Shown here one piece after another: positions 14,446 to 30,465 of a stretch of 34,525 bases of DNA. Every line of letters starts with the position of its first letter. Position 1 is the stretch's first letter. The stretch is from a bacterium (lineage in GTDB: Bacteria; Oederibacteriota; Muellerivitia; Muellerivitales; Muellerivitaceae). The notes under the pieces were generated by a model. It made no database searches. It saw only the letters and a list, made by a program, of their open reading frames with translations, and was not told where the DNA came from. A program made the position numbers and the translations under genes. The stretch lies in NCBI GenBank assembly GCA_035549195.1, contig DASZRK010000042.1:1-34525 (forward strand), written 5' to 3'.

Positions 14446-16254
14446 ATGCTCCAAGGCAACATCGACAAATACAAACTCCTTGAGATCAAGGGCAGCGGGA
14501 CCTTCGGGACCGTCTGGCTGGCCGAGGACACCTGGATCGGTAAAAAGGTGGCCATCAAGATCCCCCATAACCAAAAAGAGGAATTCACCACCCTCATCGC
14601 CGAACCCAAGCTCCTCGCCTCGCTGGACCACCCCAACATCGTTCAGATCCTCACCGTCGACAAGGCCGAGAACATCTTCTTCATGGTCATGGAATACGTG
14701 GACGGGAAGAACCTGGCCCAGCTCATCCAGGAAACCCCGCTCACTTATAAAGAAGCCGTCGACATCGTCATCCAGATCCTCAACGCCCTCCAATACGCCC
14801 ATGAAAAGAACGTCATCCACCGCGACCTCAAGCCGGGGAACATCCTCCTGACCGCCGAACGGAAGGCCAAGATCACCGACTTCGGGACCGCCCTCATCCA
14901 GACCGGCAAGAGCGGCGCCACCATCGGCGGCACCCTTTACTACATGTCCAAGGAACAGGTCCTGGGCCATCCGGCCAAGGCCTCGGACGTCTATTCGGTC
15001 GGCGTCATCCTCTACGAGATGGTCACGGGCAAACTGCCCTTTTACGACGAGGTCCCCATGGCCGTCCTCAATAAGATCCTCAAGGACGACGTGCCCGAGC
15101 CCCACAAGATCAACGCCAAGGTCCCCAAGGAGATCGAGGCGGTCATCATGAAGGCCCTCCAGAAGGAGGTCTCAAAACGTTACCAAACGGCCGCCGAGAT
15201 GCGGCAGGACCTGGAAAAGCTCCCCGCGAACATCCTCGAGGCGCCCATCGGCATCGGCTCCAAGACCCAGGATATCCTGACCCACACGATCATCCAAGAA
15301 GAGACCAAGAAGCAGGTCTCCAAGGAAGTGGGGGACATCAACAGCCTGCGTTATCAGGGTTACCACTACAAACTGGTCAAGACCATCGGGACACGCGGGA
15401 AGGAAGAGGGGAACTTCATTTCACCCGTGGCGGTGGCCGTGGATGGCCAGAAGCGCGTCTATGTCTGCGACTCGATGAAATGTAACGTCCAGGTCTTCGA
15501 TCCCGACGGCAAACACCTCTACACCGTGGGCAAGTTCGGGAAGGAAGTGAGCGATCCCAAGGAGGTCTCCTTCCTGCTCCCCGTCTCCATCGCGGTGGAC
15601 CAGGGCGGCAACCTGGTGGCCCTGGACGCCAAGACCTGCAACGTCCAGGTCATCGGGAAGATGGGGCAGCTCCTGGCCAAGTTCGGGGAACCCGCTTCAC
15701 CGACCACGGGCAAGATCGAGATCGGCGCCGGGGGATTCTTCCACCCCCAGGCCCTGGCCCTGGACGACAAGGACAACATCTACGTCTCCGATACCGGGAA
15801 CCACCGCATCCGCGTCTTCAACCCGGCGGGCAAGGTCCTCAACAAGTTCGGCATCCAGGGCGCCCGGCTGGGCGAGTTCAACTGCCCCGCGGGACTGGTG
15901 CTGGACAGCTCCGGGAACCTCCTGGTGGTGGACGAAAAGAACTACCGGGTCCAGATCTTCACGGCCAAGGGGGCCTTCAAGAACAAGTTCGGCAAACGGG
16001 GCACCAGCCGCGGCGAATTCATGGCCCCCGTGGGCATCGCGGTGGATTCCAAACGGAATATTTTCGTCACGGACCGCGACATGCGTATCCAAGTTTTCGA
16101 CCCGGAGGGGTATTATCTAACCGAGTTCGGGACTCCCCAGGGCAACTACAAGATCGCCCCCAAGTATTACGGGGTCGCCATGGACGCGGAGAACAGCCTT
16201 TACGTCACCGACATCGCCAATTGCAGTGTGCTGGTCTACGCGCTCAAGAAATAG
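14446..16254 (+). CDS. Ser/Thr protein kinase fused to a six-blade NHL propeller
   Basis: A 602-residue protein. Residues about 8-268 are a Hanks-type kinase: glycine loop GSGTFGTV, ATP lysine Lys38 in VAIK, catalytic HRDLKPGN with Asp127, Lys129 and Asn132, and metal-binding DFG with Asp145. The activation segment ends MSKEQ instead of the usual (S/A)PEQ. Residues about 302-602 hold six NHL repeats (pattern P.(G/A)(I/V)A(V/L)D...(I/V)YV.D..N.R(I/V)QVF), enough for a complete propeller. No transmembrane helix lies between the two, unlike mycobacterial PknD, so both should be cytoplasmic. The NHL part probably binds a ligand or partner. The gene is followed after 18 bases by an FHA-containing cyclase, an obvious candidate target because FHA domains bind phospho-threonine. 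Confidence 0.93.
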   Translation: MLQGNIDKYKLLEIKGSGTFGTVWLAEDTWIGKKVAIKIPHNQKEEFTTLIAEPKLLASLDHPNIVQILTVDKAENIFFMVMEYVDGKNLAQLIQETPLTYKEAVDIVIQILNALQYAHEKNVIHRDLKPGNILLTAERKAKITDFGTALIQTGKSGATIGGTLYYMSKEQVLGHPAKASDVYSVGVILYEMVTGKLPFYDEVPMAVLNKILKDDVPEPHKINAKVPKEIEAVIMKALQKEVSKRYQTAAEMRQDLEKLPANILEAPIGIGSKTQDILTHTIIQEETKKQVSKEVGDINSLRYQGYHYKLVKTIGTRGKEEGNFISPVAVAVDGQKRVYVCDSMKCNVQVFDPDGKHLYTVGKFGKEVSDPKEVSFLLPVSIAVDQGGNLVALDAKTCNVQVIGKMGQLLAKFGEPASPTTGKIEIGAGGFFHPQALALDDKDNIYVSDTGNHRIRVFNPAGKVLNKFGIQGARLGEFNCPAGLVLDSSGNLLVVDEKNYRVQIFTAKGAFKNKFGKRGTSRGEFMAPVGIAVDSKRNIFVTDRDMRIQVFDPEGYYLTEFGTPQGNYKIAPKYYGVAMDAENSLYVTDIANCSVLVYALKK

Positions 16255-16272
16255 AAGGGAAGCGAGAGCGGA

Positions 16273-17844
16273 ATGAGCCCATCGACGACCCCCGAACCGA
16301 CGACCCCGGGACGCATCGTCCTCACCCCCCCGAAATCCGGGGGGAAGCCCCAGATCACCCTGACGGTCCTGGCCGGCCCCGAGCAGGGCCAGATCTTCAA
16401 GATCGCCCGCCCCACCACCACGCTCGGCCGCTCCAACACCTGCGAGATCGTCATCACCGACCCCCTGGTCTCCCGCCAGCATTGCCAGGTCATCCTGGGG
16501 ATGGGCGGCATCAACCTGAGGGACCTGGGCAGCACCAACGGCACTTTCCTCAATGGGACCCGGGTCACGGAAAGCCCGTTGCGCAACCAGGACGTGGTCT
16601 CCATCGGGGGCACCCGCCTGCGTTTCGCGGTGGAGGTGGCCAAGGACGAGGCCGAAAGCAAGACGCCCAAGCTCGACGAACTGGCCCACAAGAAACTCCT
16701 GACCCTCTACGAGGTCGGGAACATCGTCAATTCGGTCCTGGAACTCAAGACCCTGCTCAACATCATCATGGCCATGGCCATCAAGGTCATGCAGGCCAAC
16801 CGGGGTTTCCTGCTCCTGAAAGAAGGCGGGAACGAACTCAAACCCGTCGCCACCCACGCCCTGACCCCCACCGAGGCCCAGGCCCCCTACAGCAAGACCA
16901 TCGTGGACACGGTGCTCCGGGAGAGGGTCCCGGTGCTGGTGCTCGACGCCTCCCACGACGTGCGCTTCGCCAACCGGGATTCCCTGAAGGCCCTGCCGCT
17001 CTCCTCGGTCATCTGCGTGCCCATCTGGGAAAGGGAGAACATCGTGGGCGTCATCTACGTGGACAAGGCCGAAGGGACCAATACCTTCAACGAAGAGGAT
17101 ATGTACTTCCTTTCGGCCTTCGCCAACCAGGCGGCGGTGGCCATCGCCAACGCGAAGCTCTTCGACGACGTGAGGCGCGAGGAACGCCTGCGGACCTCCC
17201 TTCAACGCTATCTTTCGCCCAATATCGTGGAGGACATGGTCCAGAAGGACAGCTCCAGCTTCTCCCTGGGCGGGGCCAAGAAGAAGGTCAGCGTCCTCTT
17301 CTGCGACATCCGTGGCTTCACCACCCTGACCGAGAAGGAGCCGGTGGAGACCATCGTGGGCCTCCTGAACGAGTATTTCAGCGCGATGTCGGAGGTCATC
17401 TTCGCCAACAACGGGACCCTCGATAAGTTCATCGGGGACGCCATCATGGCCATCTATGGGGCGCCCATCGAAGTGGCCGACGGCGCCTACAAGTGCGTGA
17501 AGACGGCGGTCGAAATGCGCACCAAACTTGCCCTTTTGAACGAGAAGTGGAAAAAAGAGAAGAAACCCCAGATCCAGGTGGGCTTCGGCATCAACACCGG
17601 CGAGGCCATCGTGGGCAACATCGGCAGTGAACGACGGATGGAATACACCGCCATCGGCGACATGGTGAACGTGGCCGCACGGGTGGAAGGGGAGACCGAG
17701 GGCGACCAGATCTTCATCACCGAGGACACCTTCAAGGAACTGGGGAACCGGGTAATGGTCAAGAAACTCTCCGCCACCGCCCTCAAGGGCAAATCCTCCA
17801 AGGTCCAGATCTATGAAGTGACCGGGTTGAACAGCGCCTCCTGA
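16273..17844 (+). CDS. FHA-GAF-class III adenylate cyclase
   Basis: A 523-residue cytoplasmic signalling enzyme that should make cAMP. Residues about 23-115 are an FHA domain (TLGRSNTCEI, SRQH, STNGTFLNG), which binds phospho-threonine. Residues about 142-300 are a GAF domain. The cyclase domain (about 337-515) keeps metal-binding Asp345 in FCDIRGFT and Asp389 in FIGDAIMA, adenine-selecting Lys385 in LDKF paired with Thr459 in EYTAIGD, and transition-state Asn466 and Arg470 in VNVAAR. A Lys/Thr pair marks class IIIb cyclases, several of which respond to bicarbonate. All catalytic residues are present, so it should work as a homodimer. The pairing with the upstream kinase suggests that phosphorylation controls cAMP output. 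Confidence 0.94.
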   Translation: MSPSTTPEPTTPGRIVLTPPKSGGKPQITLTVLAGPEQGQIFKIARPTTTLGRSNTCEIVITDPLVSRQHCQVILGMGGINLRDLGSTNGTFLNGTRVTESPLRNQDVVSIGGTRLRFAVEVAKDEAESKTPKLDELAHKKLLTLYEVGNIVNSVLELKTLLNIIMAMAIKVMQANRGFLLLKEGGNELKPVATHALTPTEAQAPYSKTIVDTVLRERVPVLVLDASHDVRFANRDSLKALPLSSVICVPIWERENIVGVIYVDKAEGTNTFNEEDMYFLSAFANQAAVAIANAKLFDDVRREERLRTSLQRYLSPNIVEDMVQKDSSSFSLGGAKKKVSVLFCDIRGFTTLTEKEPVETIVGLLNEYFSAMSEVIFANNGTLDKFIGDAIMAIYGAPIEVADGAYKCVKTAVEMRTKLALLNEKWKKEKKPQIQVGFGINTGEAIVGNIGSERRMEYTAIGDMVNVAARVEGETEGDQIFITEDTFKELGNRVMVKKLSATALKGKSSKVQIYEVTGLNSAS

Positions 17845-22172: not shown

Positions 22173-23504
22173 ATGAAGAACTTTTTCCTGCTCCTCCCGC
22201 TTCTTCTCCTGCCCATGCGGCTTTCCGCTTACCAGATCCTCTTTTACTACAACAGTCACGACGGGACCGAAGGCGGTCTTTCCCAATGCGTCAGCATCCT
22301 GCAAAGGGCCGGCCATCGAGTGACCCCCATCGATGTCCAAGGGGAACCCTACGACCCCACCGGCGATCGTTGGGAAGGTGCCTACGACCAGGTCTGGGAT
22401 ATGCGATTCGTGGACGAGGAAACAAAGGGATGCGGCAAGACCAAGACCTATTCCGCGGACCACTTCGACGCCAAATGGCGGGCCAAGGCCATCCGCTACC
22501 TGGACCATTGTGGGAAGCTCTTTTTGGCGGGGGAACACTATCAGTTGGGCAACCGGAACGAGGGCCTTTACCGGTTCCTGAAAGAGATCCAGGCCGTGAA
22601 ACCCGACTTCGACGAATGTCCGCCTTCCCCCTTGGGTAACAGTACGACCGACAGCAAGGCCTTTTACAAGGTCCATGGGCTCAAGGGTGTGTCCAAATTT
22701 TATGGGGCCTATGTTGGAGGGATCCCCATGCGAATGCTGAACGGGACCAGTTTTGGGGATACGGCCCAGGATTGGGACTGGGATGATCAGGTCCGCAGGT
22801 CTTTCCTGAACGGATGGAAAGGGGACCAATTGGGTGGCGCGATCCAGGTCCCGGTTTGTGGGGAAGAGCGTCTTTTCATGGTCTGGGACGCCACCATGTG
22901 GACCCTTTGGCAACCGGGAGCCGTGGAGGAATACAACCCTTCCGGTCCCATTTGGGACGAGGAAGGCTGGTTCAATTACGACCCGGGACATCCGCCCAAA
23001 GGCAACCTGCCGGAATTCGAGAAAGCCCGGGTTGCGACCAAAACCCTCTTTCCGGCCATTGCCGACTGGCTCGGTCCCAAGGTCCCTTGCCCCTGTGCCC
23101 AGGACCATCCCAGGATCCCCGCCACCCGAACGATCCCTTCACAGGCCCCACGATCTCCCGTACCGCCCGGAAGCGCCCCGGCCCAAAGTCAGTTGTTGCC
23201 CGGACCGCCCAGATCCGATACGGCCCATCTTCCGGTCACCTTGATCCTGGGCACCGAAGCCCTGAATATTTACATGCGCTTCCTCGACGGTCCCGGCCAC
23301 TATCGTTTGGAGATCCATGACGCCTGGGGAGCATGGGTCAAGACGGTCTACGATAAGGACATCCAACTGACCCGGGACGACTGGGCCACTTGGGATGGGA
23401 ACGAGTCCTCGGGTCGTATCATGCCGGCCGGCCTTTACCAGGCCGTGCTTTTCAAGGACAGTAGGATTTTGAGGAAATTGGTCATCAAAAAGATCGGTCC
23501 TTGA
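22173..23504 (+). CDS. Exported GATase-like protein with FlgD-like C-terminal tail
   Basis: A 443-residue secreted protein. Residues 1-19 are a signal peptide (cleavage after LSA). The N-terminal half begins YQILFYYNSHDGTEGGLSQ and has a Rossmann-like order of strands with GKLFLAGEHYQLG, as in ThuA/class I glutamine-amidotransferase-like folds, but no clear Cys-His-Glu triad is seen. Residues about 315-365 are a Pro/Ser-rich linker. The C-terminal 80 residues are a FlgD-like Ig module (WDGNESSGRIMPAGLYQAVLF, ending RKLVIKKIGP), similar to the last module of the protein ending at 1345 and to type IX sorting domains. Ribosome site is poor. Function is unknown; surface display or secretion is likely. 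Confidence 0.75.
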   Translation: MKNFFLLLPLLLLPMRLSAYQILFYYNSHDGTEGGLSQCVSILQRAGHRVTPIDVQGEPYDPTGDRWEGAYDQVWDMRFVDEETKGCGKTKTYSADHFDAKWRAKAIRYLDHCGKLFLAGEHYQLGNRNEGLYRFLKEIQAVKPDFDECPPSPLGNSTTDSKAFYKVHGLKGVSKFYGAYVGGIPMRMLNGTSFGDTAQDWDWDDQVRRSFLNGWKGDQLGGAIQVPVCGEERLFMVWDATMWTLWQPGAVEEYNPSGPIWDEEGWFNYDPGHPPKGNLPEFEKARVATKTLFPAIADWLGPKVPCPCAQDHPRIPATRTIPSQAPRSPVPPGSAPAQSQLLPGPPRSDTAHLPVTLILGTEALNIYMRFLDGPGHYRLEIHDAWGAWVKTVYDKDIQLTRDDWATWDGNESSGRIMPAGLYQAVLFKDSRILRKLVIKKIGP

Positions 23505-23576: not shown

Positions 23577-24563
23577 ATGAAAATTCAGCCAAAAACGCCC
23601 TCCGCCGCTCCGGCGCCCGCCAAAAGCCATACGCTTTTGTGGGTCGTGCTGATCCTGGGCGGGTTCTTCTTTTTCAGCATTATTTTCCTGGTTTTCGCTT
23701 TCCAACACCTTTCCGGACATGCCACCCATACCCCTCTGCTTTATTCGAGCGACCAGATCGACCTGATCGAGATCAATGGGCCCATCTATCAAAGCGATGA
23801 GGTCGTCCACCAGATCAAGAAATTCCGCAAGAGCTCCCAGAAGGCCCTTTTGGTCCGGCTGGACAGTCCCGGGGGAGTGGTCGCCCCGTCCCAGGAGATC
23901 TATTCGGAGATCCTGAAGGCCCGTAAGGACAAAAAGATCGTGGTGGCCAGCATGGGTAGCTTGGCGGCTTCGGGAGCCTATTACATCGCGTCCGCTTGCG
24001 ACAAGATCGTGGCCAATCCCGGGACCCTGACCGGCTCCATCGGGGTCATTTTCCATATTCCCGAAGCCTCGGGCCTTTTGAAGAAAGTGGGCGTGAGCTA
24101 CCAGACCATCAAGAGCGGCAAATTCAAGGACACCGGATCTTTCGACCACCCCATGTCCCCGGAGGAAAAGGCCTATATCCAAGGTACGATCAACGAGGTC
24201 TATCAGCAATTCCTGGACGCCGTGGTGGACGGCCGCCGGGAGGCGTTCCAACAAAAGGTCGCCCAATTGCTCCATCGTAAGCCCAAGACCGTGACCGACC
24301 AGGAGATCAAGAACTACATCACCCCCTATGCCGATGGAAGGATCCTGACGGGGGAGAAAGCCTCCCAGTTGGGGTTCGTGGACCAGATCGGGGGCTATGA
24401 GGATGCCGTCGACTTGACCGCCCAATTGGCCGGCATCAAGGGTGAACCCACCATCCACCAGGACCGGCCCTCCCAATTCGAACAATTCCTCAAGAACATG
24501 ACGCCCCTATCCGCGCTGTCCAAGTTCGAGGGAAGCTACCTGCTGGAATACCGGGCCTTTTGA
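23577..24563 (+). CDS. sppA: Signal peptide peptidase SppA (S49 family)
   Basis: A 328-residue membrane-anchored serine protease that degrades cleaved signal peptides. One hydrophobic segment (residues about 21-46) anchors it. The catalytic serine Ser132 is in LAASGAYYIA, the general base Lys184 in SGKFKDTGS, and LDSPGG and TGSIGVI are present. It is the single-domain form (about 36 kDa), which assembles as an octamer in other bacteria. No ribosome site is seen and the promoter predicts a nearly leaderless message. It precedes two exported or membrane proteins, one of them a metalloprotease, which suggests a shared envelope proteolysis role. Confidence 0.95.
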   Translation: MKIQPKTPSAAPAPAKSHTLLWVVLILGGFFFFSIIFLVFAFQHLSGHATHTPLLYSSDQIDLIEINGPIYQSDEVVHQIKKFRKSSQKALLVRLDSPGGVVAPSQEIYSEILKARKDKKIVVASMGSLAASGAYYIASACDKIVANPGTLTGSIGVIFHIPEASGLLKKVGVSYQTIKSGKFKDTGSFDHPMSPEEKAYIQGTINEVYQQFLDAVVDGRREAFQQKVAQLLHRKPKTVTDQEIKNYITPYADGRILTGEKASQLGFVDQIGGYEDAVDLTAQLAGIKGEPTIHQDRPSQFEQFLKNMTPLSALSKFEGSYLLEYRAF

Positions 24564-24607: not shown

Positions 24608-26473
24608 GTGGCTGAATCCGCCAATCCATCCGCCAATACCCCTGCCGACGCCCCCGCACCCCCGCCGCCGGCGACCCCGGCCCGCAAAACAGCCGGCCCC
24701 AAGGTCATGGACCACGCCGGCCGCATGGTCTCCATTACCGTCCATTTGTTCCTCGGAGCCTTCTTGATCCTCTTGAGCATCTTGCTCCGCAAAGGGAACA
24801 TCGGGCTGCCCCACGCTGTACAAGTCCCCCTCCTGAATCTTTTGCCTCATTACCCTTACCTGATCGGCGGCATCGGTGTATTCCTTTGGGCCAGGGCCCG
24901 TGGCATGGCCGCCGATTTTTATACCGCCGAAAAGAAGAAGGACCGACATTCACCCCACGCCTGGAAGATCCCCCTGATCTGGGCCCAAGCGGTCTTTTTA
25001 TACCTTCTCTTCATCTACGCCATGGTCATCGGCCTGAATTGGGGAACGCCGATCGAGAATCCCATGGCACTGGCTTTTTTCGTCTTCTTTTTCTTCATCT
25101 ATGTGCTCGTCTACGTCTTCGAGCACGCCCGCAACCGCATTCCTTCCATCGCCGGGCTTCGGATGGCGGTGGTCACCTTGTCCCTTGCCGCCCTTTCCGC
25201 GCTGCTTTGGGTTGGTTTTCAAATGGTCTTTCCCAGTCTCTTGCTCGCTTTCCTGGCCCTGATCGGCCTTTTCACCAGCCTCTTCATCCGGATCAAGAAC
25301 GTGGAACAGGTCGGTTTCTGGCCCAAGATCCTTTTCCTCGTTCTTTCGGCCCTTCTTTTGGCCCACGTCGCCTGGTATTCCTTGCCCTTCGGGCGAGATT
25401 CCTATGACTATGTCTCCTTGAACCGTGCCGCCCAGGCACTCTCGGGTGAGATCCCTTCCCTGACCTATTTCCAGCCGGGGGTCCACCATGAAGGGACCCA
25501 GTTGGCCCTCACGCACAGATCGGAAGGGAACTGGACGCTTGAATTGATGAATCCCGATAACCTCCCCCAACCCATCCTCATCCCCGCCGGCTCCGATGAT
25601 TTCCGTAGCCTCTTCGCCATGAACGGAAAATATATCCTGGCGGACATGGTCAAGGACGGGACCAGGGCCGTCTGGAAGGTCGACACCCAAACGGGCAAAG
25701 CGTCCCGGCTTCAAGCTTCCGGTATCGAACCCTTTTCCGATGGGGTTCCCTGGTCCGAAAGGAACGGCCAACTTCTCTATGTGACCCATTCGGAAGAAGG
25801 CAAGTACCTGCTCAAGAGCCTGACCCTCGCCACCAACAAGTCCACCCTTTTGATGTCCGCCTCGAACCCGATCCTGACCCCCTCCTGGGTGAACGTCGCG
25901 GACCCGCAAAGGACCCCTTTCTGGGCCCGTTATGACGAACAGGTGGCCTATGCCGACGGGGCGAACGGCCTTTTCTACGTCCTGGACCTGCGCACCATGG
26001 AAAAGAAACCCCTGAAATCGGACCTGGAACGCATGGAGGGCGAGAAGTTCAAGCCCCTAGGCAAGGTCCTGGAGGTCGTCCCCTCCCCGGACAGCTTCCG
26101 CTATGCCTACATGACCCAGGACGGGAACAAGACCATCCTTTGGGTGGTCGGGTCCGATGGAAAGAAGCGGGACAGCCTCTATGAGACCACCGCTGCCATC
26201 TCCCACCTGGCCTGGCACCCCGATTCCCAACGCTTGATCTTCCAGGAGCTCCATCAAGGCTGGCACAGTTGGGATATGGGCTTCCTCCGGGCCTACTCCA
26301 ATATCAAGATCCTCGACGCCAACCAAGGAGGGACCGTTAATTTGATCCCACCCCAGATCTCCCATTCCGCACCGGCCGTTTCACCCGATGGGGTCAAGGT
26401 GGCTTTCGTCGCCGGCGATGGATTGTGGTATCCCACTAATCAACTAGGGATCTGGATCGCCAACCTCCGCTAA
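24608..26473 (+). CDS. Polytopic membrane protein with C-terminal TolB-like propeller
   Basis: A 621-residue protein. A Pro/Ala-rich N-terminus of about 35 residues is followed by about seven membrane helices (between residues 40 and 260, for example ITVHLFLGAFLILLSILL and PKILFLVLSALLLAHVAWY). Residues about 270-621 are a beta propeller of the TolB/WD40-like type, with blade motifs such as VPSPDSFRYAYMTQDG, LAWHPDSQRLIFQEL and APAVSPDGVKVAFVAG. The propeller is probably periplasmic. GTG start with AGGAGG five bases upstream. The next gene also carries a TolB-like propeller, so the two may interact or descend from one another. No enzyme motif is visible; a sensor or scaffold role is inferred. 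Confidence 0.8.
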   Translation: MAESANPSANTPADAPAPPPPATPARKTAGPKVMDHAGRMVSITVHLFLGAFLILLSILLRKGNIGLPHAVQVPLLNLLPHYPYLIGGIGVFLWARARGMAADFYTAEKKKDRHSPHAWKIPLIWAQAVFLYLLFIYAMVIGLNWGTPIENPMALAFFVFFFFIYVLVYVFEHARNRIPSIAGLRMAVVTLSLAALSALLWVGFQMVFPSLLLAFLALIGLFTSLFIRIKNVEQVGFWPKILFLVLSALLLAHVAWYSLPFGRDSYDYVSLNRAAQALSGEIPSLTYFQPGVHHEGTQLALTHRSEGNWTLELMNPDNLPQPILIPAGSDDFRSLFAMNGKYILADMVKDGTRAVWKVDTQTGKASRLQASGIEPFSDGVPWSERNGQLLYVTHSEEGKYLLKSLTLATNKSTLLMSASNPILTPSWVNVADPQRTPFWARYDEQVAYADGANGLFYVLDLRTMEKKPLKSDLERMEGEKFKPLGKVLEVVPSPDSFRYAYMTQDGNKTILWVVGSDGKKRDSLYETTAAISHLAWHPDSQRLIFQELHQGWHSWDMGFLRAYSNIKILDANQGGTVNLIPPQISHSAPAVSPDGVKVAFVAGDGLWYPTNQLGIWIANLR

Positions 26474-26496
26474 GCCGCCGGTGGGGAAGGGCCGTG

Positions 26497-29400
26497 ATGA
26501 GAACCAAACCCATCTCCCGACCCCGCCTAGCCTTCCTAGCGGTCCTCCTTCTTCTTTTTACCGCCAAACCCCTTTTCCCCTTCGGCTTCGGGCACAATAA
26601 GGTCCGTTACCACACCGGCCACCACTGGAAAGTGATCGAAACACCCCATTTCCTGGTGCACTATTACGAGCCCTGCGAAGAACTGGGAAAGACCGCGGCC
26701 CGCGACGCCGAAAAGGCCTTCCAGGGCACCTGCCAAGCCTTCGATTTCGTGCCAAAGAACAGGATCCCCCTCTATATCTACGCGACCCCGCTCGAGTTCG
26801 AGGAAACGAACATCACCCCCCAGGTCTTGGAGGAGGGGGTCGGCGGTTTCACGGAGGTCTTCAAGAACCGCATCGCGGTACCCATGGACGGGTCCTACCA
26901 TGAATTCGAGAAGGTCCTGCACCACGAGCTCACCCACGCCTTCCAATACGACCTGATCTACGGGGAGGGCTGGCGTTCGGTGAACCTCTTCAAGGCCGTC
27001 TTTGTCCCCACTTGGATGATGGAGGGCATGGCCGAGTGGAATGCCCAGCACCTGGACGCCCAGGGCGAGATGGTCCTGCGGGACGCCATCCTGAACGATA
27101 AGATCATCCCCTTGAACCTGATGGATTCCTTCGAACATTTTCCCCAGGTCTATACCGCCTATAAAGAATCCCAAAGCATCCTGGACTACATCGACCAGAT
27201 CTATGGCTACGATAAGGTCGGTCAACTGTTCAAGCGGATGGCCGCGAACCAGCCGCCCGACGCCGCCTGTAAAGCCCTCCTGGGGATCGGGCTGATGGAC
27301 CTCTACGATCAATGGCGCTTTTACCTTCGCTCCAAGATCTGGTCCCGGATCGAGGGAATGGCGGCACCCGAGCGTTATGGGGAAAAATGGGGGGACGGGA
27401 TCTCCCGGGCCGCCGTTTCGCCCGACGGGAGATCCTTGGCCTTCCTGCGGCAGGATGACTTGGTGCTCTGGACCCTTCCCGACAAGAAAGAAGAGACGCT
27501 TCATCACGCACACTTCGATCCCAAGGGGAACGGGCTCGCTTGGTCCCCGGACGGGAAAAACCTGGCCTTTTGCGCGACGGAGAATGGGGAATATCGCCTG
27601 GAAACCCTGGAGATCGCATCCCACAAGCTCACGGTCCATAGGATCGATGGATTCCCGGTCCTTTTTTCCCCGGTCTGGACCCCGGACGGCGGTTCCATCG
27701 TGCTGGCGGGCTTCGATTACCAGACCGTGGACCTATTGCGGTACGACCTGTCCAGCCGGAAGGCGACCCGTTGGACCGACGATCAAGCCACCGAGAATTC
27801 CCCGTGTCTTTCCCCGGATGGGAAGACCCTTTTTTACATCCAGGAGGATGAAGGGCGGTGCCGGATCCTCTCGTCCCCGGTCGACCCCCAAATGGGTCCG
27901 GGGGCGGCCCAGGTCGTCGCCGAGGGCATCGGCCAGGTCACGGGGCTTCATTGGGCCCAAGGAGCCCTCTACCTGACCAGCAACCTGAACAAGGCCATCT
28001 TCAACCTATTCCGGCTGGAACCGGCGACCGGAACCCTGACCCAACTCACCGATAGTTTCGTGGATATCCTGAACGCGGTCCCGGCTCCCGACGCAGGGAA
28101 CTTCTACGCCGTTCTCTATCAAAAGGGGGCCCTGGGTCTTTACGCCTTCGACGCCAAAGCCCTCGAGAACACCCCGGCACCACCCGGGTCCAGCGGATAT
28201 CTTTGCAATGATTTCCGTGATTCACTGAAGGTCTTCCCCAAACCGGCCGTGATCGTCGAAAAGGGATCCGACACCTTGAACCAGGACCGGGACCAACCCG
28301 AGATCGAACCGACCCGGACGGTCCCGACCCAACCACCCCTCCCCCCGACCCACTTGGATGTGACCGAAGCCACCAACATCGTGCAGGTCCAATGGGCCCC
28401 AGGCGCCGGGGAAGGGGAGAACATCGATTCGTTCCGCATCTACCGGTCGTCGGTCGAAAAGGGACCCTTCAGCCCCGTCACCACCCTGACCCACGTCCAC
28501 CAAAGACACTTCGTCGATTATGACGTCGAGAACGGACAAACCTATTTTTACTACGTAACGGCCTTGAACGGCGTCGGGGAGAGCGGCCCCTCTCCGGTGG
28601 TGGAGGCGCACCCCAGCTTCGCCGAGACCACACAGGAGGACGGCTTCGCTTTCACGCCCGACATCCTGCTTTTCCTGGCGGGCTACGACAGTTCCTTCGG
28701 CTTCGTGGGCGGGGGAGTGGTCCAGATGAGCGACAATCTGGGCGACCACCGGTTGGGACTGCTGGGGGACACCATTCCAGGGGTCCGTACCGGACTTGAG
28801 GCCAATTATGAATTCGCCCAGTGGAGGACGACCGTCGATCTGGACCTTTATTACTATCAGAACTATTTCAACATCTATGACCTGCAGACAGGGAGCATCG
28901 TGAACCAATACCGGAACAACGAGAACGGCTTCGCCCTGAATTTCACCTATCCGCTGACCCAGGACACCCGTTTCGAGTACGGCTTCGGCACCCAGCGGTT
29001 CTTGGGCAGTCCGGTCTACCTGCAGTTCTCCGAAGGCATCTCCAATTATGCCCCTGCCGACGCCGACAAGTGGGATGTGGCGAACTACTATCGCCTTTCC
29101 TTCGTCCAGGACAAGCGGACCGCCTCGAATTTCTGGCCCAGTGGAGGTTACGCCCTCGACCTGACCCTGCTCCACGCGCCGCCCATCTTGGATTCCACTG
29201 TTTCCTTCGCCAACGTCATGACCGAGGCCCAATGGTACGTGGATTTCGGGTTCCTGAACCACTTGGTGTGGGCCAACCGCCTGATCGGAATGACCTCCCA
29301 GGGAAGGGACCCTCAACAATTCTTCATCGGGAACGACGCACCCTTCCAAGCCTTCTTTACGACCATCCGGGGCTACGGCGGGCCCACCTTTTTTGGGAGC

Positions 29401-29706
29401 AATCTCGCTCTCTATAACACCGAATTGCGCTATCCATTGGCCACGGACATGGATTTCATACCCCAGCCCCTGTCCTTCCTCCTGATCAAGGACCTGGAAC
29501 TGGCGGGATTCCTCGATCTGGGCGCCGTCGCCGACCAGATCCAGCAGATCCCCGATTCACACCTGCTGGCCAGCGCCGGAACAGGCCTTCGGATCTACAC
29601 CTTTGCCTACCAAAGGGCCCTGATCCTTTTGCGGTTCGACGTGGCCTGGCGGTTGGACGAAACCGCCCCGCCTTCCTTTCATTTCAACCTGGTCCCCATG
29701 TTCTAG
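26497..29706 (+). CDS. Metalloprotease - TolB propeller - FN3 - Omp85-like barrel fusion
   Basis: A 1069-residue outer-membrane protein. A signal peptide (about residues 1-29) leads into a peptidase MA-like domain with the zinc motif HELTH (His143, Glu144, His147) and a likely third ligand Glu176 in MMEGMAEW. Residues about 300-575 are a TolB-like propeller with repeated SPDG motifs. An FN3 domain covers about 613-707. Residues about 720-1069 form a beta barrel with the Omp85-type IRGY motif at 957-960 and a terminal Phe (FHFNLVPMF). The design resembles type Vd autotransporters such as PlpD, but with a protease passenger and FN3 where POTRA would sit. The start is the ATG at 26497, six bases after GGGGAAGG. 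Substrate and orientation are unknown. Confidence 0.88.
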   Translation: MRTKPISRPRLAFLAVLLLLFTAKPLFPFGFGHNKVRYHTGHHWKVIETPHFLVHYYEPCEELGKTAARDAEKAFQGTCQAFDFVPKNRIPLYIYATPLEFEETNITPQVLEEGVGGFTEVFKNRIAVPMDGSYHEFEKVLHHELTHAFQYDLIYGEGWRSVNLFKAVFVPTWMMEGMAEWNAQHLDAQGEMVLRDAILNDKIIPLNLMDSFEHFPQVYTAYKESQSILDYIDQIYGYDKVGQLFKRMAANQPPDAACKALLGIGLMDLYDQWRFYLRSKIWSRIEGMAAPERYGEKWGDGISRAAVSPDGRSLAFLRQDDLVLWTLPDKKEETLHHAHFDPKGNGLAWSPDGKNLAFCATENGEYRLETLEIASHKLTVHRIDGFPVLFSPVWTPDGGSIVLAGFDYQTVDLLRYDLSSRKATRWTDDQATENSPCLSPDGKTLFYIQEDEGRCRILSSPVDPQMGPGAAQVVAEGIGQVTGLHWAQGALYLTSNLNKAIFNLFRLEPATGTLTQLTDSFVDILNAVPAPDAGNFYAVLYQKGALGLYAFDAKALENTPAPPGSSGYLCNDFRDSLKVFPKPAVIVEKGSDTLNQDRDQPEIEPTRTVPTQPPLPPTHLDVTEATNIVQVQWAPGAGEGENIDSFRIYRSSVEKGPFSPVTTLTHVHQRHFVDYDVENGQTYFYYVTALNGVGESGPSPVVEAHPSFAETTQEDGFAFTPDILLFLAGYDSSFGFVGGGVVQMSDNLGDHRLGLLGDTIPGVRTGLEANYEFAQWRTTVDLDLYYYQNYFNIYDLQTGSIVNQYRNNENGFALNFTYPLTQDTRFEYGFGTQRFLGSPVYLQFSEGISNYAPADADKWDVANYYRLSFVQDKRTASNFWPSGGYALDLTLLHAPPILDSTVSFANVMTEAQWYVDFGFLNHLVWANRLIGMTSQGRDPQQFFIGNDAPFQAFFTTIRGYGGPTFFGSNLALYNTELRYPLATDMDFIPQPLSFLLIKDLELAGFLDLGAVADQIQQIPDSHLLASAGTGLRIYTFAYQRALILLRFDVAWRLDETAPPSFHFNLVPMF

Positions 29707-29802: not shown

Positions 29803-30465
29803 TTGAAAAAACTCATCCTGACCGCATTGGCCTTCTTGCTTCTTTGGGTGGGGTCTATGACCGCCAAGCCCGCTCCGGATTATTTCATCTCAAAATACGA
29901 CATCATGGACCTGGACTTCCTCCGGACCCACTACACCGAGATCAATAATGGCAGGCCGATCCAGATCACAGGCCAATTCTCGTCCTTCAAGTGGTTACAA
30001 CCTTACCACTACCAGGAACGCCTGAAGGAGCTCGGTTTCGATCCCGAGCATTACAACCTGGTCCAGCTGTCGCTCAAGGAAAAGGACGACTACCACTACT
30101 CCTTCCCCATCCTCCTCCTGCACCGCGAGACAGGGGACCTTCACGAACTGGAAGAGATCGCCAAGGACATGAAACTGGTGGTCTATGGCCATTTCTACAA
30201 CATGGCCAAATCCGAATACGCCATCCAAACCGACCTGATCGAGCTCCAGAACGCCCGTTACCGGGTCAATATCAAGGGCACCCCTGGTTACGAGATCTGG
30301 GGCCACGACCGGGCCATCCTCTTGGACGGTCGGATCCCGCCGACACCGACCGCCACCCCGACCGTGACGCCCACTCCTGCCCCGAACCTTTGGCAAAAGG
30401 TCAATAACTGGATCAATCCAAAGGAAACCGGGACACCCACGGGGACCGTGACCCCGGGTACCTGA
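29803..30465 (+). CDS. Exported protein with Thr-Pro-rich C-terminal tail
   Basis: A 220-residue protein with a signal peptide (MKKLILTALAFLLLWVGSMTAK). I do not recognise the family. The mature domain (about residues 24-178) is mixed alpha/beta and contains PIQITGQFSSFKWLQPYHYQ and LVVYGHFYNMAKSEYAIQ, suggesting an OB-like strand pattern. The C-terminal 40 residues are a Thr-Pro-rich tail (TPTATPTVTPTP, then TGTPTGTVTPGT) like the linker of the protein at the left edge of the window; such tails are usually O-glycosylated or span to the surface. Translation begins at TTG with AGGAG upstream. It precedes the dehydrogenase by ten bases, so both may share the 29733 promoter. Confidence 0.75.
   Translation: MKKLILTALAFLLLWVGSMTAKPAPDYFISKYDIMDLDFLRTHYTEINNGRPIQITGQFSSFKWLQPYHYQERLKELGFDPEHYNLVQLSLKEKDDYHYSFPILLLHRETGDLHELEEIAKDMKLVVYGHFYNMAKSEYAIQTDLIELQNARYRVNIKGTPGYEIWGHDRAILLDGRIPPTPTATPTVTPTPAPNLWQKVNNWINPKETGTPTGTVTPGT

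Follow-up and report, generated by a model that had tools for sequence, protein, structure and literature searches.

A widespread family of POTRA-less Omp85 barrel proteins carrying an N-terminal zinc peptidase and a TolB-like propeller

Analysis of a 34,525 bp stretch of DNA (the window) from a genome of candidate division FCPU426 revealed a gene whose single product comprises, from the N- to the C-terminus, a signal peptide, an HExxH zinc peptidase, a TolB-like PD40 propeller, an FN3 domain and an Omp85 barrel. We propose, giving the reading about an even chance, that this product is an active gluzincin-type zinc protease which its own POTRA-less Omp85 barrel tethers to the outer membrane on the inner side, where it carries out processing or quality control of envelope proteins.

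Organisation of the gene and its product

The open reading frame (26494-29706, + strand) was uninterrupted and encoded 1070 amino acids from a GTG start codon, or 1069 from the ATG at 26497. The following features were assigned to it:

26497..26583, + strand: Sec-type signal peptide, residues 1 to ~29, judged by eye from the translation
26584..27396, + strand: zinc metallopeptidase domain of the Peptidase_MA_2 clan, residues 30-300
26923..26937, + strand: HELTH, the HExxH zinc-binding/catalytic motif, residues 143-147
27022..27027, + strand: E176-G177, probable third zinc ligand (gluzincin type)
27397..28176, + strand: TolB-like PD40 beta-propeller, residues 301-560, approximately six blades
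28177..28641, + strand: linker, residues 561-715, variable in the family; the FN3 domain lies inside it
28342..28608, + strand: FN3 domain, a lineage-specific insert, residues 616-704
28642..29703, + strand: POTRA-less Omp85 barrel with a C-terminal Phe, residues 716-1069
29365..29376, + strand: IRGY, counterpart of the BamA L6 (V/I)RG(F/Y) motif, residues 957-960
29509..29523, + strand: FLDLG, counterpart of the strand-13 FxDxG motif, residues 1005-1009

These domains had been named in a sequence-only reading of the window, and Pfam bore them out. Peptidase_MA_2 matched residues 86-277 (1.1e-15; 58.4 bits, cut-off 32.4), Omp85 matched residues 777-1055 (1.8e-12; 47.9 bits, cut-off 24) and PD40 also matched (2.5e-13), whereas the fn3 match to residues 616-704 (2.6e-5; 24.8 bits) fell slightly below the cut-off of 25. 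A chance origin of the matches was ruled out by their E-values together with the conservation of the domains. The product was conserved over its full length in sister genera of candidate division FCPU426, at 55-60% identity.

A family profile was built from 21 members, approximately 100 loci were fetched, and 102 members were recovered, of which 99 were aligned. The signal peptide was recognised from its hydrophobic N-terminus, which is followed by a conserved FGxNK; the mature start was placed near this motif, and N34, K35 and W44 were kept in 96-99% of the 99 members.

The zinc peptidase

H143, E144 and H147 of the HELTH motif were identical in 99 of the 99 aligned members, as were E176 and G177. 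The HExxH motif and downstream Glu expected of a gluzincin-type Peptidase_MA_2 enzyme were therefore intact throughout an alignment that spans many families, which indicates that catalysis is under selection. Read from its motif, E176 is the probable third zinc ligand. The peptidase residues conserved at 100% were R125, H143, E144, H147, W173, E176, G177 and Y222. Five members that seemed to lack the HExxH..E pattern proved to be an artefact of an over-strict regular expression, as all 5 carried HExxH and E-G. The barrel-protease gene was the only Peptidase_MA_2 gene in its genome. A comparison of the peptidase profile with solved structures gave no match at E<=10.

The propeller and the linker

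The propeller matched solved structures of TolB at 1e-9, and at 1e-28 when the family profile was used, with periplasmic TolB as its nearest match. The two are homologous by sequence, whereas TolB is a free periplasmic protein of the Tol-Pal system that has neither a protease nor a barrel.

The linker was the sole poorly conserved part of the protein, with a mean column identity of 10% compared to 39-50% for the other domains in the 99-member alignment, and its length varied from about 13 to 257 residues across the family. Outside the phylum, the longest linkers were of low complexity; the shortest linkers of the family had only about 13-30 residues. The FN3 domain of the window also matched solved FN3 domains (myomesin, 2e-4), and fn3 was matched in only 3 of 21 aligned members. 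No POTRA family matched the protein in Pfam at E<=1. The suggestion that FN3 takes the place of POTRA was ruled out by inspection of the linkers across the family: the presence of fn3 in so few members, together with the variable, low-complexity linkers elsewhere, argues that the FN3 domain is a putative lineage-specific spacer and not a POTRA replacement.

The Omp85 barrel

The family barrel profile matched solved BamA barrels (1.4e-6), and the barrel aligned with the BamA of the same genome in hhalign (1.4e-10, 96.9% probability). In the latter alignment IRGY was paired with TIRGY, NTELRYPL with NTELKHPL, FLDLG with FFDTG and the C-terminal Phe with Phe. The motifs were strongly conserved among the 99 members (R958, 97%; G959, 95%; F1005, 98%; D1007, 97%), and D746, G884, E976, R978 and G1028 were conserved at 100%, rounded to two decimals. 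The barrel is thus homologous to BamA and has the L6 motif together with the strand-13 aspartate, as expected of the Omp85 superfamily; the POTRA domain that is usual, although not universal, in this superfamily was absent. The assignment to Omp85 made by the sequence-only reading consequently stands.

Candidate strands were counted as alternating-hydrophobic segments read by eye off the alignment, which is not a structural model. This gave 16 segments at BamA-like positions:

Candidate strands 1-8: residues ~723-730, 734-744, 751-760, 763-772, 776-788, 808-818, 823-834, 861-871
Candidate strands 9-16: residues ~884-893, 902-917, 921-934, 968-980, 999-1010, 1023-1037, 1040-1052, 1060-1069

On this count IRGY comes after strand 11 and before strand 12, and strand 13 contains FLDLG, the same placement as in BamA. 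The barrel would accordingly be predicted from its sequence to have 16 transmembrane strands, and the count gave no sign of the far smaller number that the sequence-only reading had named as a refutation. AlphaFold, run on shallow alignments, returned a mean pLDDT of 42.6 for the full protein (4-row alignment) and 33.1 for the barrel alone, values too low for a usable model.

Distribution and co-inheritance

At E<=1e-30 the family profile had matches in 160 of the 384 genomes searched, frequently two or three in a single genome; these genomes represent 128 of 331 genera and mostly lie outside the phylum of the window. The architecture is therefore widespread, in contrast to the rarity that the sequence-only reading had implied. 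The recovered members were typically 930-1200 amino acids long, and the same order of peptidase, propeller and barrel was found in nearly all 102. The three domains diverged together: outside the phylum their pairwise distances were correlated with Spearman coefficients of 0.67-0.79, which fits their inheritance as one unit. The family is large, ancient and bacterial. The gene was missing from some complete relatives (for example G004, 99% complete), and so is not universally needed.

Some apparently barrel-less members were rejected. Those in genomes G032, G122 and G340 lay at contig ends, and for the one in G145 the barrel was located in an overlapping ORF, probably as the result of a frameshift. 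A barrel-less relative of 633 amino acids was encoded on the Salinibacter ruber plasmid pSR116 (L170, 5905-7806) with HELVH and EGMAE intact; the peptidase-propeller can therefore exist alone, and not every function depends on the barrel. This relative was annotated as 'basic secretory protein-like', and a TonB-dependent receptor gene was found close by on the plasmid.

Besides the barrel-protease, the source genome encoded one other Omp85 protein, which was of the BamA type with POTRA. A POTRA-containing BamA-type gene was also present in 56 of the 59 genomes of relatives.

Relationship to known systems

A WD40-Omp85 subfamily was described in 2014 (Heinz and Lithgow, PMC4104836) as POTRA-less proteins with a propeller and a barrel, and was likened to a BamA-BamB fusion. 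The protein of the window, having a TolB-like propeller N-terminal to an Omp85 barrel and no POTRA, agrees with the definition given there and is very probably a WD40-Omp85 member of the Omp85 superfamily. It differs from the WD40-Omp85 proteins as described in the main text of that survey, where no peptidase is mentioned on them, in that an intact zinc peptidase is present. It is likely that the published WD40-Omp85 set and the zinc-peptidase family are identical.

The same survey (PMC4104836) named a 'Metallo' subfamily, the metalloprotease-Omp85 proteins, which also lacks POTRA and which its text ties to PF00149, described there as a metalloprotease domain. PF00149 is Metallophos, a phosphoesterase family, and so the 'Metallo' class is not this protein: the domain here is an HExxH peptidase, and no match to PF00149 was found in the protein or on its contig. 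The 'metalloprotease-Omp85' label of later papers may rest on the PF00149 naming in PMC4104836. What the survey text says suggests that 'Omp85-metalloprotease' has been attached to a phosphoesterase family, with the genuine HExxH peptidase going unmentioned there.

PlpD, the model PL-Omp85 (type Vd) protein, likewise combines an N-terminal enzyme and an Omp85 barrel in a single chain. PlpD, however, is a homodimer with a patatin lipase and a POTRA between enzyme and barrel, whereas the protein of the window has a zinc protease in place of the patatin-like passenger, a propeller and no POTRA. The patatin domain of PlpD was found in the periplasm in a 2024 study (PMC11116518), and the model system therefore no longer shows surface delivery.

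The E. coli M48 zinc protease BepA degrades outer-membrane proteins or helps to assemble them at BAM (PMC8423444). It too is a secreted HExxH...E protease at the outer membrane, a likeness that is a functional analogy only: BepA is soluble, belongs to a different peptidase family, bears a TPR domain and associates with BAM through non-covalent contacts, whereas the protease here is fixed to its own barrel.

In the open-access literature searched, no experimental study of the peptidase-propeller-barrel architecture was found, and only the 2014 survey (PMC4104836) touched on it. Those Omp85 proteins that the surveyed literature names as having been studied by experiment carry POTRA, whereas this family, found in 128 of 331 sampled genera with its zinc-protease site intact in every aligned member, does not. 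The family would offer a way to examine directly the function of an Omp85 barrel that has no POTRA, and to learn whether a barrel-fixed outer-membrane protease carries out quality control in diderm phyla.

Proposed function

After Sec export, the barrel would probably be inserted by the separate BamA of the genome, and the N-terminal peptidase and TolB-like propeller would remain in the periplasm. The propeller may gate or dock substrates, with the linker (here including FN3) acting as a spacer, and the protein would likely process exported envelope proteins, or control their quality, at the outer membrane, in a way similar to BepA. A protease facing the periplasm is favoured because Omp85 barrels begin and end in the periplasm, as established for BamA, because the enzyme of PlpD is periplasmic and because TolB is periplasmic; from these analogies we infer the topology of the peptidase-propeller. 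Protease activity, the class of substrate and the role of the propeller are likewise presumed. The invariant catalytic residues, the joint divergence of the three domains, the separate BamA and the SppA neighbours also speak for this reading, and BepA is a precedent for an HExxH protease that acts on outer-membrane proteins at BAM; the lack of peptidase matches among solved structures, the absence of the gene from some complete relatives and the barrel-less Salinibacter ruber copy speak against it. A further step, which we regard as doubtful, is that substrates engage the seam or pore of the barrel and are clipped by the covalently attached protease, such that insertion or secretion and processing are combined in one machine. 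If true, this combined unit would be a system not described before, ancient and widely distributed.

Three alternatives were weighed against the periplasmic, barrel-anchored protease. The protein could assemble barrels as a BamA-like insertase, with the propeller standing in for POTRA and BamB as the substrate dock and the peptidase performing secondary editing. The retention of IRGY and the strand-13 Asp at 97% is consistent with this, as is the proposed resemblance of WD40-Omp85 proteins to a BamA-BamB fusion (PMC4104836), but these genomes already have a canonical BamA and the protein has no POTRA. Moreover, the catalytic residues were as strictly kept as the barrel motifs, so that proteolysis does not look secondary, and we consider an assembly factor rather unlikely.

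It is unlikely that the barrel has lost its transport activity and serves only as a structural anchor for a protease in the periplasm, one devoted to the maturation of particular secreted or surface proteins. The L6 RG and strand-13 Asp could drift in a mere anchor, yet both were 97% conserved, although this conservation may be needed simply for folding. In favour of an anchor, the reuse of Omp85 scaffolds outside transport has been argued for PlpD (PMC11116518), and Salinibacter ruber has a peptidase-propeller that lacks the barrel.

A type Vd-like autotransporter, as put forward by the sequence-only reading, in which the protease-propeller reaches the surface by way of the barrel or BAM and there digests external protein or is released, has a signal peptide, a globular enzyme and an Omp85 barrel on one chain and the older PlpD literature (cited in PMC4104836) in its favour, but is very unlikely given that the protein has neither patatin nor POTRA, that the patatin domain of PlpD is itself periplasmic (PMC11116518), that the TolB-like propeller has a fold of periplasmic type, and that a folded passenger of ~540 residues is unlikely to traverse a 16-strand barrel.

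Genetic context

The following genes flanked the barrel-protease gene:

23577..24563, + strand: SppA-type signal peptide peptidase (S49), a conserved neighbour (Pfam Peptidase_S49, 2.5e-46)
24608..26473, + strand: inner-membrane protein with TolB-like repeats (weak PD40 match, 0.005; TolB profile, 8.6e-5)
29803..30465, + strand: small secreted protein, the next gene

SppA was encoded one or two genes upstream of the barrel-protease gene in 11 loci, which come from at least 5 families within the phylum and from a single genome of a different phylum. In other lineages the barrel-protease gene comes after an apparent ispH and rpsA, the latter backed by a Pfam S1 match, at times with sppA. Part of the SppA adjacency may therefore stem from an old, inherited gene order (ispH-rpsA-sppA) and not from a link in function. 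The inner-membrane TolB-repeat protein, which has several TM helices (by eye), lies between SppA and the barrel gene and occupied the same position in 7 loci from the family of the window and G013; it is a possible inner-membrane partner of the barrel-protease. The small secreted protein was found in 5 loci, was conserved only in the same family and had no Pfam match.

In six further loci from other lineages (L092, L129, L138, L139, L149 and L160), two small genes were located directly upstream of the family gene, one for a TPR lipoprotein and one for another probable lipoprotein, an arrangement that suggests a three-gene operon. Downstream of the family gene in L042, L044 and L046-L049, an undecaprenyl-diphosphatase-like protein and a metallo-beta-lactamase-fold-like hydrolase were recognised by eye.

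Elsewhere in the window, the secreted protein encoded by 22173-23504 belonged to no recognised family, apart from a weak FlgD_ig match at its C-terminus, and is a conserved neighbour of SppA within the same family. Two proteins encoded at 14446-17841, an NHL-repeat Ser/Thr kinase and an FHA-GAF-cyclase protein, were 88-91% identical to those of relatives; this signalling pair is strikingly conserved compared to the nearby MutL, MiaA and NUDIX (60-75% identity). Finally, the protein encoded by 38-1345 had DUF11 and FlgD_ig domains and a Por secretion-tail domain match that exceeded its cut-off, which hints at a sorting signal of a type IX-like kind.
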